From the IMG/VR virus record IMGVR_UViG_3300030012_003944, positions 18,912 through 57,384 of that record: a DNA stretch of 38,473 nt. The stretch is one strand, 5' to 3'. Every line of letters starts with the position of its first letter. Within the stretch, counting starts at the first letter, position 1. The position numbers and the translations under genes are program-made. Below are positions 25,688-35,470 of the stretch, piece by piece. Source of the DNA: a virus. The notes beneath the pieces are model-generated. The model saw nothing but the letters and a program-made list of their open reading frames with translations. It was not told the origin of the DNA and ran no database searches.

Positions 25688-26134
25688 ATGAACTGGACAT
25701 ATAATAAAAAACAAATTGAGGATCTTTCTCATTTTCCAAATAATACTTACGGATTTATTTATAAAATAACTCATGTTCCTACTAATAAATCTTATATTGG
25801 TAAAAAAGTATTATTTCATAATCGTAAAGTAAAACTAACTAAAAAAGATTTAGCCCTATACGAAGGTGTAGTAGGTAGAAAACCTGCTTATAAAATTGCT
25901 ACTAAAGAATCAGACTGGAAAACATATTGGGGGTCAAATAAACCACTCTTAGAGATATTAAAATCAGAATCTCAAGAAAATTTTACTAGAGAAATTTTAA
26001 AATTTGCATCAACAAAAAAATTATTAACATATTACGAAACACAAGTTTTATTTGTATATAGAGTTTTAGAAGAACCTGAAATGTATTATAATGATAACAT
26101 TTTAGGTAAGTTTTTTAGAAAAGATTTTGAGTAG
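25688..26134 (+). CDS. GIY-YIG-type endonuclease
   Basis: 148 residues. The YGFIYKIT (21-28) and SYIGKK (35-40) strands form the GIY-YIG core; the likely metal-binding Glu is E117 in LLTYYETQV. The middle block (ESDWKTYWGSNKPLLEIL) is shared with Seg-like phage endonucleases. Such enzymes cut DNA and often behave as free-standing homing endonucleases. Here it sits at the junction between the tail genes and the replication genes, a typical homing position. Confidence 0.8.
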   Translation: MNWTYNKKQIEDLSHFPNNTYGFIYKITHVPTNKSYIGKKVLFHNRKVKLTKKDLALYEGVVGRKPAYKIATKESDWKTYWGSNKPLLEILKSESQENFTREILKFASTKKLLTYYETQVLFVYRVLEEPEMYYNDNILGKFFRKDFE

Positions 26135-27872: not shown

Positions 27873-28622
27873 ATGATAAGTCTTATTCAATTACTAAAAG
27901 AATCCCAAAAAACCCCTAAAGTTATATTTATGGCTGGACCTGCAGGAGCAGGTAAAACATATGTATTAAATCAGTTAGGATTACAAAACTTTAAAGTAAT
28001 TAATGTAGATGATGTATATGAAAAATTGCTTAAAGATACTTTAGGTAAAGAAGATTTTGGCTCTATGTCACCTGAAGAATTATCAACAGCGGGTAAACTA
28101 ATGGGTAAAGCTAGGGTTGTTACTAGAGAAAAAGAAACTCAAGCATTAGAAAATCTTGAAAACATAATAATTGATGGTACAGGTGCTGCCTCAAGACCCT
28201 TACTTAAGAAAAAACAACAATTAGAAGATTTAGGGTATAATACATTTATGGTTTTAATTTATGTATCTCCTATGGTATCTTTAAAAAGAAATGCTCAAAG
28301 AGGTAGAAGTTTACCTACATCAGCTGTTTTAGCTAGTTGGGATGGTGTAATGAAAAATATAAATTTATATAAACAAGAATTTGGTAGTAATATTACTTTA
28401 ATAAATAATGATCCTGAAAATGCTGATAAGTCTTTTGATCCTAATTCTATTATAAAATTATTCCCACAACCTAAAGGTAAACCTAAAACCCCAGAGGAAA
28501 GGGCTAAATCAAAAGCTAAAAAAGAACAAATAAACCAGAATATAAAAGCTCTTTTAAATGCAGAACGTGAATTTGATACTTTAAATGTAGCAAAACAAAA
28601 AATTAATGGATTCGTTAACTAG
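27873..28622 (+). CDS. P-loop kinase, zeta-toxin/AAA_33-like, with capsid-leader-like N-terminus
   Basis: 249 residues. Leader MISLIQLLKESQ contains LLKE, similar to T4-type prohead protease sites. Walker A is GPAGAGKT (22-29). NVDDVYE (44-50) is the acidic residue block after strand 2, IIIDGTG (97-103) the second nucleotide-binding strand, and LKRNAQRGR (136-144) the arginine-rich lid. This set is that of zeta-toxin-like and polynucleotide-kinase-like small-molecule or RNA kinases. The C-terminus is basic (KTPEERAKSKAKKEQINQNI). Substrate unknown. Overlaps the following gene by 17 bases. Confidence 0.75.
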   Translation: MISLIQLLKESQKTPKVIFMAGPAGAGKTYVLNQLGLQNFKVINVDDVYEKLLKDTLGKEDFGSMSPEELSTAGKLMGKARVVTREKETQALENLENIIIDGTGAASRPLLKKKQQLEDLGYNTFMVLIYVSPMVSLKRNAQRGRSLPTSAVLASWDGVMKNINLYKQEFGSNITLINNDPENADKSFDPNSIIKLFPQPKGKPKTPEERAKSKAKKEQINQNIKALLNAEREFDTLNVAKQKINGFVN

Positions 28623-31581
28623 ATCACTTATTAAAGATCTTTTACCTGAAAGTATAGAAGGTAAAGAGGTTACTGCTGTTTTTGGTGGTGGGTTTAAACC
28701 ACCAACATCTGGACATCTTTTAGTAATTCAAAAAGCACTTCAAGACCATCCTGAAATAGATAATATTATAATTTATGTTGGTAGTAAAGCAAGAGATGGG
28801 ATTACACAAGATCAAGCATATAAAATTTGGAATGAATATTATAAATCTTTAATTGATAAACCAGTTAGAGTAGAAAAATCAGTTTCCCCAATTGGAGATA
28901 TTTATAGATATGCTAAAGACAACCCTGAAGATTCTATATATTGGATTATAGGAGCAAGAGAAGGTAGAGAAGATGATTTACAAGACATATCATTAAGATC
29001 TGTATCTATAGACAAATACCCTAATTTAAATTTAAAAACAATATCTACTCCAGATAGGGGTATGAGTGGTACTAATGCTAGACAAGCATTAATAAACAAT
29101 GATAAAGAAGCTTTTAAATCTTTTATACCTAGCAATGCTAATCAAGATGAAATTTGGAATATCTTAACTTCTACACCTTTAAATGAAGGTGACCCTAAAA
29201 AAGGTACAGGTAAAAAACCTAAAGGGTCAGGTAGACGTTTGTATACAGATGAAAATCCAAAAGATACTGTTAAAGTTAAATTTTCTACAAGACAAGATAT
29301 AATAGATACTTTAAATAAAACTTCATTTAAATCTAAATCACATGCTCGACAATCTCAAGTAATCAATTTAATACATCAAAGAGTAAGAGCAGCTTTAAGT
29401 AGAACAAAAGATCCTAAAAAGAAAGCTAAATTACGTTCTGCTTTTGAATATATTAAAAAACGTAAAGAGGCATCTAAGAAAAAAACTCAACGTTTAAAAA
29501 AACAAAAAACTAATGAAGCTATAGATACTAATTTTGATAAGGTTAAATTTTATTATGATTATTATACTAATGTTTCCCCATCAACTTTTGGAGTTACTAT
29601 GGAAGAAAACAATATTAAAATAAGTAACATTACAGAACCCTATTCTTCTAATTTTGGTCCTGAAAATGTAAAACAAATCCCTGTAAATCAAAATTTAGAA
29701 GAAAGCTTAAATGAGGATATTTTAGAAAAAACGTCTTTAGTTTTACCAAGAGGCAAAAAAATATATTTACAAGCAGAAGAAGAAGATTATGATAGAGGAA
29801 TTATAGTTGAATTAAGTGAAGAAGGAGGATATAAAATTAACTATTGGTATGGTGATGATGCTAAAGTATATCCTGTTGAAGTTGAAGTTGATGGAGAATC
29901 AATTAAACCTGATGCTAAAGAAGTTTACATGAAATTCCACCCATATTTAAAAAAAGAAAATATAGATCCTAAAGTTCAAGCTAAACATAAAGGTAAATCA
30001 TCCCCTTTTGGTTCAGCATATAAACCAGTAAATGAACAAAAAACTACACATGAAGTTATTGCTAAAGGAATAGTATTTGAACCTAAAAACATTACTATAA
30101 ATGTAGGAGATACTGTTAAATGGGTAAATGAACAAGGAGCACATAATGTTAACGGAGAAAAATCTCACGAAAGAAATAAAGATAACCCTGAAAGTTTTGG
30201 TAATAAAGTAGGAACAGGGTGGACATATAAATTTACATTTACTAAACCTGGATTATATAAATACCACTGTGACCCACATCTATCAGCTGATATGGTTGGG
30301 ACTGTAAAAGTAAAAGGTAAAATAGATGAAGGTGATACTTATGAAAAAATGGCTGCTAAAGGAAAAAAAGCAGGCAGTTTAAAACAAGGCACAGTTAGAA
30401 AAAGATTAAATATACCTAAAGATAAAAAAATTCCATTATCACTAATTAATAAGGAATTAGCCCGTTTAAGAAAAATGGATAAAGATAAAAAGAAAAAAGG
30501 GGTACAATTAGGAGATAAAAATCAAAAATACTATAAAGCACTTCAATTATCTAAAACATTAAAAACTACAACTAATGTAAATGAAACTGGTTTAGAAATA
30601 GCTAAAAAAAATATGGATGATTATAAAAGATCTAATCAACTAAATGAAAATGCTACATACTCTAGTCATATAGATTATAAACAAGAAATTATAGATTTAA
30701 CAAAACATATGTTAAAAAAGGGCATGAATATTAAACCTTTGCCTAAAGTAATATTTAAACATAATGATAAAGAAAATGCTCAAGAATTTTTAGGTAGAAC
30801 TGCTTATTATAATCCTAATAGTATGACAATAGTTTTATATACCGAAGGTAGACATCCTAAAGATATAGCTAGATCATTTGCTCATGAAATGATTCATCAC
30901 ATTCAAAAACTAGAAGATAGATTAGAAAATATTACTACTACTAATACTCTTGAAGATGATCATTTAAATAATATAGAAAGAGAAGCATATACAAGAGGTA
31001 ATATGGTCTTTAGAAACTATACAGATGGTAAAGATGGAGAAGAAGTTACTAGTTTAAATGAGAAAGAAAAACCATATAAACACAAGTATGGGTTTGATAA
31101 AAATCTAGGTAAAGATCCTTTTGGATTAAATCAGTTTGCTAGAGAATTAGCTAGTTTAGAAGAAAATGAAGATAATGAAGGTTTTCGTTCTTATAAAAGC
31201 ACATTTGCTCCTCAAGTTAATATTACAATAGTTTTTAAAGAATATGATAAATATAAGGATTTAAAATCTTTATTTAAAGAATATGGGTATGGTTTTTATT
31301 CACCTAAAACTAAAACTATAGTAATAGATGGTGAAGTTTTTATAGACTCTAATTTGACTTTTAATGATTTAAAATTTGTTGAAGCTCATGAAATATCTCA
31401 TTTAATAATGAACCATTCAGGTCCTCGTTCTGATAAGGATGAATTAGATGCAGATTTAGGAGCCTATATTTTATTAAAAAGTCAAAATTTACCTGTGGAT
31501 AACTTAAAAAAACAATTTAAATTTAGACATGGAATAGAATTTAATGAAAAATTACTTGATCGTGTTAAAGATAAATTTTAA
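28606..31581 (+). CDS. 991-residue multidomain (poly)protein: nucleotidyltransferase, basic module, cupredoxin, two HExxH metallopeptidase domains
   Basis: Residues 1-18 are an amphipathic leader. Residues 21-190 form an HxGH-type nucleotidyltransferase (GGGFKPPTSGH 27-37; MSGTNARQAL 153-162). Residues 195-300 are a Lys/Arg-rich module (GSGRRLYTDENPKDTVKVKF). Residues 305-475 hold two unknown modules. Residues 478-570 are a type-1 copper domain with ligands H513, C555, H558 and M563 (YHCDPHLSADM). Residues 578-655 are a basic helical module. Residues 682-815 contain HEMIHH (760-765). Residues 820-991 contain HEISH (928-932) with ELDADLGAY (946-954). Modules are separated by PLNE 194, KTNE 304, SLNE 370, PVNE 477, NVNE 660, QLNE 681 and SLNE 820. 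These look like protease sites, so mature products may be separate. Fusion order and processing are unusual and inferred. Confidence 0.8.
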   Translation: MDSLTRSLIKDLLPESIEGKEVTAVFGGGFKPPTSGHLLVIQKALQDHPEIDNIIIYVGSKARDGITQDQAYKIWNEYYKSLIDKPVRVEKSVSPIGDIYRYAKDNPEDSIYWIIGAREGREDDLQDISLRSVSIDKYPNLNLKTISTPDRGMSGTNARQALINNDKEAFKSFIPSNANQDEIWNILTSTPLNEGDPKKGTGKKPKGSGRRLYTDENPKDTVKVKFSTRQDIIDTLNKTSFKSKSHARQSQVINLIHQRVRAALSRTKDPKKKAKLRSAFEYIKKRKEASKKKTQRLKKQKTNEAIDTNFDKVKFYYDYYTNVSPSTFGVTMEENNIKISNITEPYSSNFGPENVKQIPVNQNLEESLNEDILEKTSLVLPRGKKIYLQAEEEDYDRGIIVELSEEGGYKINYWYGDDAKVYPVEVEVDGESIKPDAKEVYMKFHPYLKKENIDPKVQAKHKGKSSPFGSAYKPVNEQKTTHEVIAKGIVFEPKNITINVGDTVKWVNEQGAHNVNGEKSHERNKDNPESFGNKVGTGWTYKFTFTKPGLYKYHCDPHLSADMVGTVKVKGKIDEGDTYEKMAAKGKKAGSLKQGTVRKRLNIPKDKKIPLSLINKELARLRKMDKDKKKKGVQLGDKNQKYYKALQLSKTLKTTTNVNETGLEIAKKNMDDYKRSNQLNENATYSSHIDYKQEIIDLTKHMLKKGMNIKPLPKVIFKHNDKENAQEFLGRTAYYNPNSMTIVLYTEGRHPKDIARSFAHEMIHHIQKLEDRLENITTTNTLEDDHLNNIEREAYTRGNMVFRNYTDGKDGEEVTSLNEKEKPYKHKYGFDKNLGKDPFGLNQFARELASLEENEDNEGFRSYKSTFAPQVNITIVFKEYDKYKDLKSLFKEYGYGFYSPKTKTIVIDGEVFIDSNLTFNDLKFVEAHEISHLIMNHSGPRSDKDELDADLGAYILLKSQNLPVDNLKKQFKFRHGIEFNEKLLDRVKDKF

Positions 31582-31583
31582 TT

Positions 31584-32129
31584 ATGGCTAACCTATTTGA
31601 TCTATATAAACTAATTAAAGAAAATGATGTATCTGCATATACTATTTATTTAGACATGGATGGTGTAATAGCTGATTTTGATCAACGATTTTTAGATTTA
31701 TCTGGAATGACCCCAAATGAATATAGAGATAAATATGGTATGGACCAATTTTGGGATTTTATAGATGAAGAAAATAAAGTAAGATTTTGGGCAGGTATAC
31801 CTGTGATGCCTGGAGCTAAAAAATTAGTAGATTATGTTTCACAATATGATTATGAGATACTAACTGCCCCTTCTATTAAAAAACAATCTAGGTTAGGAAA
31901 AATGGTATGGTTGCGTAAAATTCATTCTAATTTATTTCCTGATACACCAAAAGTAAATTTTAAACCTGCTAAAGAAAAACATCAAGTAAAACCAACTCTT
32001 ACTAAAACAGATATTCTTATAGATGATAGAGCAAGTACTATAGATACTTGGAATTCTTCTGGTGGAACAGGAATATTATATACATCCGCAGATGATGCTA
32101 TTAAACAACTTAAACAATTAGGATTATAA
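31584..32129 (+). CDS. HAD-family 5'(3')-deoxyribonucleotidase-like phosphatase
   Basis: 181 residues. Leader MANLFDLYKLIKEN carries LIKE. HAD motif I is YLDMDGVIADFD (22-33; nucleophile D24, acid D26). The later ILIDDRASTIDTW is motif IV. The cap region (MTPNEYRDKYGMDQFWDFID) and FWAGIPVMPGAKKLVDYV are typical of NT5C-like nucleotidases. The catalytic lysine is probably in TAPSIKKQSRLGKMVWL. Likely dephosphorylates nucleotides. TAATG overlap with the next gene. Confidence 0.8.
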   Translation: MANLFDLYKLIKENDVSAYTIYLDMDGVIADFDQRFLDLSGMTPNEYRDKYGMDQFWDFIDEENKVRFWAGIPVMPGAKKLVDYVSQYDYEILTAPSIKKQSRLGKMVWLRKIHSNLFPDTPKVNFKPAKEKHQVKPTLTKTDILIDDRASTIDTWNSSGGTGILYTSADDAIKQLKQLGL

Positions 32130-32757: not shown

Positions 32758-33423
32758 ATGAAAGATAACTTTGATTTAAAGAAATTTTTAACGGAAAATA
32801 AAACCATTGAAAATTCTAATCCTTATTTAAAAGAAGAAAAAGAAATATCAAAAAAAGAAGAAAAATCTCTTAAAAAAGTTTCTAAACAACTAAAAAAATC
32901 AGTTAAAGCTCATGATTTACAAGCTAAAACCATTGATAAAGCTTTAAAAGAAGAATCAACAGACCTTAAATCTAAAATTCGTGAAATGATTATTAACGAA
33001 TTAAGTGAAGTAATGGATCCTAAAGATGAAGAGGAAGAAATAGATTATGAAGATTATGAAGAGCAAAAAAGACAAGCAGAAGAAGAAGCTGAAATAGCAG
33101 CTTATCTTGGTAGTATACCATTTGAAGAATCTTTAGACGAAGCTAAAGAAGATGAAGAAGAAATAGAAACTGATGAATCCGAAGACACAGAAGAAGTACC
33201 TGAAGAGGAAGAAACTGAAGAAATAGAAACAGAAGAAAAACCTGAAACTGGAGGTGGATTAGAAGATATAGCTGCTGACATGGAAGGTGATGAAGGTGAT
33301 CTTATGGACCACCTAATCTCAGCTTTAAAAGTATCTAAAGCAATGGACAACGAAAAACTTACTACTCAAATAGGAAACACCTTAAAATTCTTTGTAGGTG
33401 AGTACATTGGAGGAGAAGAATAA
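32758..33423 (+). CDS. highly acidic core/internal head-type protein
   Basis: 221 residues. Leader MKDNFDLKKFLTENK is close in pattern to T4 capsid-targeting sequences and contains FLTE. A Lys-rich coiled coil follows (KKEEKSLKKVSKQLKKSVKA), then an extremely acidic middle (about 85-175, e.g. EEIETDESEDTEEVPEEEET), then a C-terminal helical domain (LMDHLISALKVSKAMDNEKL). This composition is typical of prohead scaffold/core or internal proteins. Internal L/x-E sites (LSE, LDE) are frequent, but so are glutamates. Confidence 0.65.
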   Translation: MKDNFDLKKFLTENKTIENSNPYLKEEKEISKKEEKSLKKVSKQLKKSVKAHDLQAKTIDKALKEESTDLKSKIREMIINELSEVMDPKDEEEEIDYEDYEEQKRQAEEEAEIAAYLGSIPFEESLDEAKEDEEEIETDESEDTEEVPEEEETEEIETEEKPETGGGLEDIAADMEGDEGDLMDHLISALKVSKAMDNEKLTTQIGNTLKFFVGEYIGGEE

Positions 33424-34443: not shown

Positions 34444-34910
34444 CAAAACAAGAGCTACAAAGTAGATTAAAGATTTTAATTAAACAGGTGTATGCTAATA
34501 AAACTATTACACCTGAGGAAGCTGTTCAATATGATGAACTAACTAAGTTTCCTGAATTAAAAGCTGTTATTGTAGATCTTTTAACACCTGAATATGATAA
34601 CTTTGTAGCTTCAATTGATTGGGTTGCACCACGTCCTTCAACATTTAGAATTAATTTAAAAAATGATCAATTATTTTACTTAATTTATGGTAAAAGAAGT
34701 TTTATAGCTCAAATTGAAGGTAAAAAATACTATTTATTAAATCTTCCTGAAGAACAACACGCTGCTGAAGCAATAGCTCGTATTTTAAGATTTGGAGTTA
34801 AACCTGAAGAAGGAACAGAAGATGGTATGGGTGGAGATTTAGCAACAGAAGAACCACCAGCTGAAGAACCAGCAACAGAAGAACCACCAACCGAAGAACC
34901 AGAAACATAA
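34440..34910 (+). CDS. 156-residue conserved-type protein with acidic repeat tail
   Basis: N-terminal leader-like helix (MTKQELQSRLKILIKQVYAN). A compact alpha/beta domain follows (PSTFRINLKNDQLFYLIYGK RSFIAQIEGKKYYLLNLPEE). The low-complexity tail is built of E-E-P-P/A-T/A units (ATEEPPAEEPATEEPPTEEP). ATGA overlap with the previous gene, TAATG with the next. No family recognised. Confidence 0.6.
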   Translation: MTKQELQSRLKILIKQVYANKTITPEEAVQYDELTKFPELKAVIVDLLTPEYDNFVASIDWVAPRPSTFRINLKNDQLFYLIYGKRSFIAQIEGKKYYLLNLPEEQHAAEAIARILRFGVKPEEGTEDGMGGDLATEEPPAEEPATEEPPTEEPET

Positions 34911-35470
34911 TGGGAAATTTTGATTTAAGAAAATTTATAATAGAAGGTAAATTGTTTGAAGCAGCAATGGAATGTCCCGCTGCTACTCAAGATGTAGCAT
35001 TAAATACTGCTAATAGAGATAGAGCTATACAAGCTGACTTTATTAATTATGGCCCATTAAATGTAGAAGAACCTGGTGATTATTGGAAAGATATAGCTAA
35101 AAAATGGAAAACAACATTTAAAGCTGCTTTTAAATCACGATGTGGTAATTGTGTAGCATTTGATATTTCACCAAGAATGTTAAAATGTATACCTGGTTTA
35201 ACTTCTGAACCTGTAGAAGAACCTAATGCAAGAGAAGATATTGATAAAGCTTTTAAAGATAATCCTAAAATAGCAAATTTAGTTAAAAAAGGTGTTTTAG
35301 GGTATTGTTGGATGCATCATTTTAAATGTCATTCTGCAAGATCTTGTAATACATGGGCAGCAGGTGGTCCTATTAATAAAGATAGTGTATCTTATGATTG
35401 GCAAGAAAGAAATGAAAAAGCCGCTTTAAACCCAGAACCTATAGACCCTGATCTTTATAAAGACGATTAA
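34910..35470 (+). CDS. cysteine-rich protein with HiPIP-like spacing
   Basis: 186 residues. Leader MGNFDLRKFIIEGKLFEAAM contains FIIE and KLFE. The body holds ATQDVALNTANRDRAIQADF and INYGPLNVEEPGDYW, a block I recall from marine phages. Cysteines: RCGNCVAF (C-x2-C), MLKCIPG, then LGYCWMHHFKCHSARSCNTW AAGG. The order C-x2-C-x-aromatic ... G-Y-C ... C-x2-W resembles high-potential iron-sulfur proteins, though a zinc site is equally possible. No start ambiguity (TAATG). Confidence 0.65.
   Translation: MGNFDLRKFIIEGKLFEAAMECPAATQDVALNTANRDRAIQADFINYGPLNVEEPGDYWKDIAKKWKTTFKAAFKSRCGNCVAFDISPRMLKCIPGLTSEPVEEPNAREDIDKAFKDNPKIANLVKKGVLGYCWMHHFKCHSARSCNTWAAGGPINKDSVSYDWQERNEKAALNPEPIDPDLYKDD

Follow-up and report, generated by a model that had tools for sequence, protein, structure and literature searches.

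A plastocyanin-type cupredoxin encoded as a cassette in a proposed capsid-cargo polyprotein of a T4-like phage

In phage T4, the internal head proteins IPI, IPII, IPIII, and Alt are unrelated proteins that carry a short tag ending in [LI]xE, the phage encodes the protease gp21, which cleaves C-terminal to L/I-x-E, and the capsid protein is cut as well (PMC9026906, PMC3012670). IPII and IPIII share the tag MKTYQEFIAE, and an Asp at position 10 of IPIII blocks processing while targeting is retained (PMC9026906). Here, we describe a 991-residue multi-module open reading frame (ORF) that holds a plastocyanin-type cupredoxin domain as residues 478–575. It lies at 28606–31581 (+ strand) of a 38,473-nucleotide stretch of marine phage DNA (the window), which is bases 18912–57384 of the 57,384-base IMG/VR record IMGVR_UViG_3300030012_003944; record and window end together. 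The tag, a gp21-type protease, and a predicted homologous cut site in the capsid protein all recur at this locus or in its relatives. The T4 internal proteins, however, are single small proteins, whereas here many cargo domains share one chain, in which the cutting motif separates them, and they are swapped as cassettes. The cargo also differs from that of T4 and includes cupredoxin, superoxide dismutase, nucleotidyltransferase, kinase, and zincins. Our accounts of published systems draw on parts of the cited papers.

Several other systems resemble this one in part. Polyvalent proteins are likewise mosaics of disparate domains, with zincin-like peptidases, GNAT, and Pol-beta-type nucleotidyltransferases, and are predicted to be injected (PMC5512222); the window ORF likewise joins at least two domains that differ in activity. 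For polyvalent proteins, processing by the embedded zincins has been proposed, whereas here there are gp21-motif borders and tagged genes of a single module. In the text of PMC5512222 that we consulted, "polyprotein" occurs twice, "prohead protease" once (in a reference), and cupredoxin, plastocyanin, and copper not at all. In giant phages of the SPN3US/phiKZ type a gp21-related protease cleaves many head proteins after x-x-E, and these are ejected (PMC5694885, PMC9026906), but the relevant parts of these papers describe no enzyme-cassette polyprotein and the phiKZ motif is S/A-x-E. The chlorovirus PBCV-1 packs a Cu/Zn superoxide dismutase in its virion, and the enzyme has been associated with reduced superoxide levels at an early stage of infection (PMC7019647). 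This is also a redox protein in a virus particle, but of an algal virus and as a single Cu/Zn enzyme with no cassette polyprotein. As a last comparison, cyanophage PetE (phrog_515) has the cupredoxin fold and the CxxHxxxxM loop, with 35–41% identity over ~82–89 residues. It is a free gene, whose neighbor in S-SSM7 and S-SM2 encodes plastoquinol terminal oxidase or ferredoxin, and a signal-like hydrophobic N-terminal stretch is present in all four cyanophage PetE proteins examined (L137–L140; L numbers are our labels for loci and contigs). By contrast, the cupredoxin described here is a signal-less cassette. Among openly licensed PubMed Central papers, searched by title and abstract, we found no published capsid-cargo cassette polyprotein and no cupredoxin of a phage other than a cyanophage. 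Judged from sequence, the cassette polyprotein may combine T4-type internal-protein packaging with the architecture of polyvalent proteins.

The cupredoxin domain matches Pfam PF00127 (Copper-bind) at 2.2e-17, with 63.7 bits against a cut-off of 21.2, and PHROG 515 (PetE) at 6.3e-12. Its best sequence match in the Protein Data Bank (PDB) is Synechococcus plastocyanin (1bxu, 8.9e-14), followed by pseudoazurins at ~1e-11. In alignments to PDB entries HNV lies over HNV and the C..H....M loop over the plastocyanin loop, and the alignment to 1bxu contains the full His/Cys/His/Met set in plastocyanin spacing (His513, codon 30142–30144; Cys555, 30268–30270; His558, 30277–30279; Met563, 30292–30294). 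Both His and the Cys are invariant in all seven aligned phage copies and the axial Met is kept in six. The seventh, the free-standing cupredoxin of L030, has Gln rather than Met at the axial position (CDPHLGMNQ), which is reminiscent of stellacyanins. An AlphaFold model made with the seven-row alignment has a mean predicted local distance difference test score (pLDDT) of 67.5, with weak ligand loops (below 50), and its top Foldseek match is plastocyanin 1pcs (E 4.9e-8, template modeling score 0.67). The ratio of nonsynonymous to synonymous substitution rates (dN/dS) is 0.07–0.38 in all 21 pairwise comparisons of the seven copies; the module is under purifying selection. From the family match, the 1bxu alignment, and the ligands kept among phage copies, this segment is a true plastocyanin-type cupredoxin with a putative type-1 copper site, as a preliminary description of this DNA had proposed. 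The peptides quoted there are found in the window ORF on the + strand. That description placed the domain at 30034–30325 and took it for a protein of its own. The domain stands, but its natural borders are 30037–30330, and it forms a single cassette within a mosaic ORF of 991 residues.

By sequence inspection, no Sec signal precedes the module, which is internal to the ORF; unlike it, the cupredoxins of three other phage contigs (L031, L126, L129) do have a signal. Cupredoxins usually act outside the cytoplasm. The lack of a Sec signal weighs against a simple periplasmic carrier. Two scans of genome contigs (no locus in the first, five in the second) did not find a cellular donor of the module. 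The best locus, L132 (CALBOT010000029.1, 67%), is on a 3.75-kb contig binned as Nitrosopelagicus and has VDE borders round the module; it is probably mis-binned phage DNA. With this locus excepted as probable phage, the next cellular match is from Fraserbacteria at 48%.

The cassette is missing from a close relative. The corresponding ORF of L009 is 95% identical over shared columns and lacks the cupredoxin. When the window is compared with the DNA of L009, the left match stops at 30036 and the right match resumes at 30328 (98.0% over 738 nt), so that the breakpoints fall on the final base of codon E477 and the initial base of codon E575. A similar difference is seen between L028 and L029, which are 98% identical contigs that differ by a block of ~948 bases; this block, with a superoxide dismutase cassette and a DILEKT-type module, is present in L029 only. 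The kinase and NT5C modules that are tagged singly in the window occur as fused modules in L043. If cassettes are swapped at [LIV]xE codons, each freed product would have defined ends.

We then asked how general this border is. The basic module found in the window ORF is encoded in at least 582 viral candidates, and the order and number of modules differ among the ORFs of relatives. From 12 viral contigs that encode relatives of the entire ORF and 80 of the candidates with the basic module we obtained 89 distinct ORFs, one of which (L093) is a start-codon artefact. In 68 ORFs of at least 300 residues we took as border edges the points where local blastp matches (60% identity or more, 20 residues or more) began or ended, and counted each distinct local context once. 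The X-drop and identity limits were tightened after a fuzzy first histogram of the edges of high-scoring segment pairs. This gave 1,410 start and 1,117 end edges, which are not independent events because the ORFs are related. The pattern [LIVMF]xE occurred at 34.9% of start edges and 31.0% of end edges, compared with 10.3% and 8.7% at random positions, an enrichment of 3.39-fold and 3.56-fold, respectively. When Glu was replaced by each of the other 19 residues the ratio never exceeded 1.45-fold. At position P3 of the edge Glu, L, V, and I were over-represented 2.1- to 2.7-fold, and Met at end edges only.

Individual modules follow the same rule. Of the 86 ORFs (of 89) with an anchored pattern, 67 have [LIVMF]xE 0–3 residues ahead of the basic module, although the site ranges over ORF residues 4 to 1001, and many of the other 19 ORFs read LxEGRKKKK there. 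If this form is allowed and unanchored ORFs are counted as misses, 82 of 95 ORFs of the final set follow the rule. The cupredoxin module has [LIV]xE directly before it and at its end in all 11 polyproteins, with several different neighbors on either side; its end border was assigned by eye as the next [LIV]xE after the last strand, and a twelfth copy (L125) is cut by a contig end. Of the 73 ORFs with 300 residues or more, 11 carry the cupredoxin, a count that gives no frequency since several were fetched for their cupredoxin. One ORF of the set (L107, 3004–9024) is a mosaic of 2,007 residues with several near-repeat modules between LNE sites and a PAP2-type stretch recognized by eye; Pfam PAP2 was matched in 1 of 46 mosaic ORFs.

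The window ORF starts with MDSLTRSLIKDLLPE, which ends in [LI]xE and is like the capsid-targeting tags of T4-type internal head proteins. Its relatives start with MNELTKFLVDGILNE, MSKLSQFLVDSILNE, and similar sequences, and neighboring genes bear tags of the same kind. Such tags are shared by otherwise unrelated proteins: the NFDLKKFLxE type is on 13 ORFs in six clusters without mutual blastp matches, and the MKHIxxFxNFIxE type on six ORFs in three unrelated clusters. In L030, a free-standing cupredoxin of 108 residues starts with MKYIKVYEKFINA and lies within an array of tagged genes. The same contig has five consecutive paralogous tagged genes (the IGEGSS... family), a local amplification, and this module is fused in L013. 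In the analyzed stretch of Flavobacterium phage immuto_2-6A, tags with [LIVMF]xE ending at residues 6–16 are on none of 8 tail genes versus 22 of 32 others (p 0.0006). In the window they are on 3 of 30 genes before 27873 versus 7 of 12 from 27873 on (p 0.002, with the boundary set post hoc).

This phage, immuto_2-6A (160 kb), is the nearest isolate and has a similar gene order (primase, exonuclease, NMNAT fusion, NT5C); its homologue of the window ORF lacks the cupredoxin. As far as the nearest isolate can tell, the earlier designation of the window as non-cyanophage is borne out. A paper on Baltic Flavobacterium phages (PMC7077304), which is not about immuto, has no virion proteomics in the part consulted. 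The immuto genes for gp20, gp21, and gp23 lie ~12–18 kb downstream of the homologous ORF. The PF03420 protease was found in 3 of 8 records and in 10 of 18 of another set (two records are common to both), and PF07068 (gp23) in 3 of the 8. Three close relatives with near-complete records, L003 and L009 (156-kb contigs) and L002 (a 49-kb contig), have both. The gp23 of T4 has 521 residues and its mature form 456, which places cleavage after residue 65, at LTE. When the capsid proteins were aligned with MAFFT, LTE65 was matched by VTE61 in L021 and by VSE in immuto, each followed by Ala. This makes Val at P3 plausible for these proteases, as it is at cassette borders.

The cupredoxin is not the only redox cargo. 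A complete Fe/Mn superoxide dismutase cassette with [LI]xE borders, which matches solved structures over its whole length (1.3e-45), is present in the polyproteins of L027, L029, and L043, and in L027 and L029 it occurs together with the cupredoxin cassette. In a Pfam scan of the 46 mosaic ORFs, Copper-bind (6) and Fe/Mn superoxide dismutase (3) were the commonest named enzyme or redox cargo, in a set enriched for cupredoxin by design.

Together, these data support the idea that the window ORF is a capsid-targeted cargo polyprotein of a T4-like phage whose cassettes would be freed in the head and injected, and we consider this reading likely. The polyprotein would be made in the host cytoplasm, as the missing Sec signal indicates. 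To judge from its form and context, the tag would carry it into the prohead core like T4 capsid-targeting sequences. The motif and the junction statistics suggest that a gp21-type serine protease would cut after [LIV]xE during head maturation, releasing a cupredoxin of ~98 residues. By analogy with T4 internal proteins, DNA would then be packed round the freed cargo, which would enter the next host with it. Thus, virions probably contain the copper protein and deliver it together with the DNA on infection, which agrees with an earlier guess that it acts after ejection.

In the new host it would serve as a redox protein. If delivery occurs in this way, the leading guess is early protection against reactive oxygen; the superoxide dismutase cassette in the same polyproteins of two relatives favors such a role, which we propose tentatively. 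Protection from oxidative bursts had been suggested before, and these cassettes lend it indirect support. Pseudoazurin can feed peroxidases and nitrite reductases. Copper binding is a less probable role, electron supply to host enzymes slightly less so, and a non-redox use of the fold is the least probable.

Several observations weigh against packaging and cleavage of this kind. The edge windows were chosen after the first histogram had been viewed, although they were identical for all residues. [LIV]xE triplets also occur inside domains, two of them in the cupredoxin (E492, E509), and folding would need to protect these sites. Inside the window ORF, the borders KTNE and YLKKE have no hydrophobic P3, and the predicted fold of the whole ORF is of too low quality (pLDDT 46) to resolve linkers. 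The tag of the L030 cupredoxin ends in FINA, not FINE, although it has VYE at residue 8, and the 53-kb pelagiphage HTVC033P carries the basic module without a tag. The window's own record (57 kb) stops short of the capsid genes and gave no protease match; from synteny with immuto, it ends upstream of the protease region so that its own protease could not be seen. Of the 18 records, 8 have no protease match, and two of these are near 200 kb. Lastly, a cupredoxin made in the cytoplasm would need a route by which copper reaches it.

We considered three other explanations. In the first, the ORF would be a polyvalent protein as described by Iyer et al. (2017): a single long chain of many domains, packaged and injected whole, with any processing done after delivery by its own zincin-like peptidase modules. 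It does have two such modules, 54 of 73 mosaic ORFs contain HExxH, and autoprocessing by zincin-like domains has been proposed (PMC5512222). But HExxH is absent from the remaining 19, 17 of which keep the [LIVMF]xE-bordered basic module (contig ends truncate some of the ORFs). The tag and the motif also occur on single-module genes without a peptidase, and the border motif is that of gp21, a homologue of which is encoded in relatives. We regard this explanation as unlikely. It is more unlikely still that the ORF encodes an intracellular multi-enzyme protein that is never packaged, with [LIV]xE being recombination-prone or linker-like sequence. In favor of this view, no module is a virion structural protein and the region also has replication genes (primase, exonuclease). 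It does not account for the specificity for Glu at P1 with a hydrophobic P3, the tags common to unrelated proteins, or the scarcity of tags on tail genes.

Very improbable, in our judgment, is an ordinary auxiliary plastocyanin that, like those of cyanophages, would support electron transport of the host in its lumen or periplasm. Plastocyanin is the closest solved structure by sequence, but the domain has no Sec signal and is embedded in a cytoplasmic mosaic protein. The module copies also lie apart from cyanophage PetE in the tree, with one label change and support of only 57/82, and the nearest isolate infects Flavobacterium. We rejected a photosynthetic auxiliary metabolic gene on account of the missing signal and the context.

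Positions of the window ORF, its modules, and tagged neighboring genes are given in Table 1.

Table 1. Coordinates (window numbering) of the mosaic ORF, its modules, and tagged neighboring genes.
Feature	Position	Strand	Remarks
Neighbor gene, tag MISLIQLLKE + Zeta-toxin/AAA_33-type kinase	27873–28622	+	kinase is a fused module in L043
Mosaic ORF, 991 aa, proposed capsid-cargo polyprotein	28606–31581	+	stop codon included in end
N-terminal tag MDSLTRSLIKDLLPE	28606–28650	+	capsid-targeting-like; final LPE (E15)
Nucleotidyltransferase-like (NMNAT/cytidylyltransferase) module	28651–29187	+	final LNE (E194); PHROG 3041 8.8e-12; Pfam CTP_transf_like below its cut-off
Basic module GDPKKGTGKKPKG...	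29188–29517	+	isoelectric point (pI) 10.8; final TNE (P3 is Thr, not hydrophobic)
AIDTNF... module	29518–29715	+	final LNE (E370); missing from some relatives
DILEKT... module	29716–29958	+	final KKE (P3 is Lys, non-canonical site); missing from L009
Short linker module NIDPK...KPVNE	29959–30036	+	final VNE (E477)
Cupredoxin cassette, plastocyanin-type type-1 copper domain (putative site)	30037–30330	+	98 codons; final IDE (E575)
Copper ligand His513 (HNV), predicted	30142–30144	+	
Copper-ligand loop C-D-P-H-L-S-A-D-M, predicted	30268–30294	+	Cys555, His558, Met563
Basic module GDTYEKMAAKGKKAGSLKQG...	30331–30585	+	pI 10.3; final VNE (E660)
Zincin-like module 1 (HEMIHH)	30649–31062	+	final LNE (E819)
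Zincin-like module 2 (HEISH)	31165–31578	+	M78/IrrE-like
Neighbor gene, tag MANLFDLYKLIKE + NT5C-type nucleotidase	31584–32129	+	fused module in L043
Neighbor gene, tag MKDNFDLKKFLTE	32758–33423	+	
Neighbor gene, tag MGNFDLRKFIIE + Cys-rich module	34910–35470	+	

The NMNAT-like module (28606–29187 with the tag) leads most polyproteins and adjoins the kinase gene; it may bear on the supply of nicotinamide adenine dinucleotide (NAD) during infection. The tagged Cys-rich module at 34910–35470 also occurs in L009, L013, L030, L040, L074, L099, and L100 and has seven invariant Cys. Its sole match in the phage database is in DSL-LC01, where it adjoins two capsid maturation proteases and is labelled high potential iron-sulfur protein. 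We rejected this identity, which is one depositor's label and is unsupported by Pfam (E up to 10) or by a PDB profile search. The gene at 25688–26134 matches PHROG 447 (NAD synthetase) plus homing-endonuclease PHROGs, and its name is doubtful. PADLOC gave a single weak match, RmrA (3.2e-5).

A broader proposal, which we put forward as possible rather than probable, is that T4-like phages of marine heterotrophs use a cargo polyprotein, processed by the prohead protease, as a rack of exchangeable cassettes, swapped at [LIV]xE codons and yielding products with defined ends. One class of cargo would be a redox set, made up of the cupredoxin alone or together with Fe/Mn superoxide dismutase, which would be borne in the head and influence reactive oxygen or the flow of electrons within minutes of infection. 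If the packaging reading is true, phage metabolic genes such as these would shift from being "expressed after infection" to being "delivered with the DNA". The [LIV]xE borders and the tag would be a sequence rule for predicting which proteins hundreds of uncultivated phages inject as cargo, and the polyprotein would be a natural precedent for several enzymes loaded in one head. It would also mean a blue-copper protein with neither a photosystem to serve nor an export signal, which raises the question of how it would acquire its copper.

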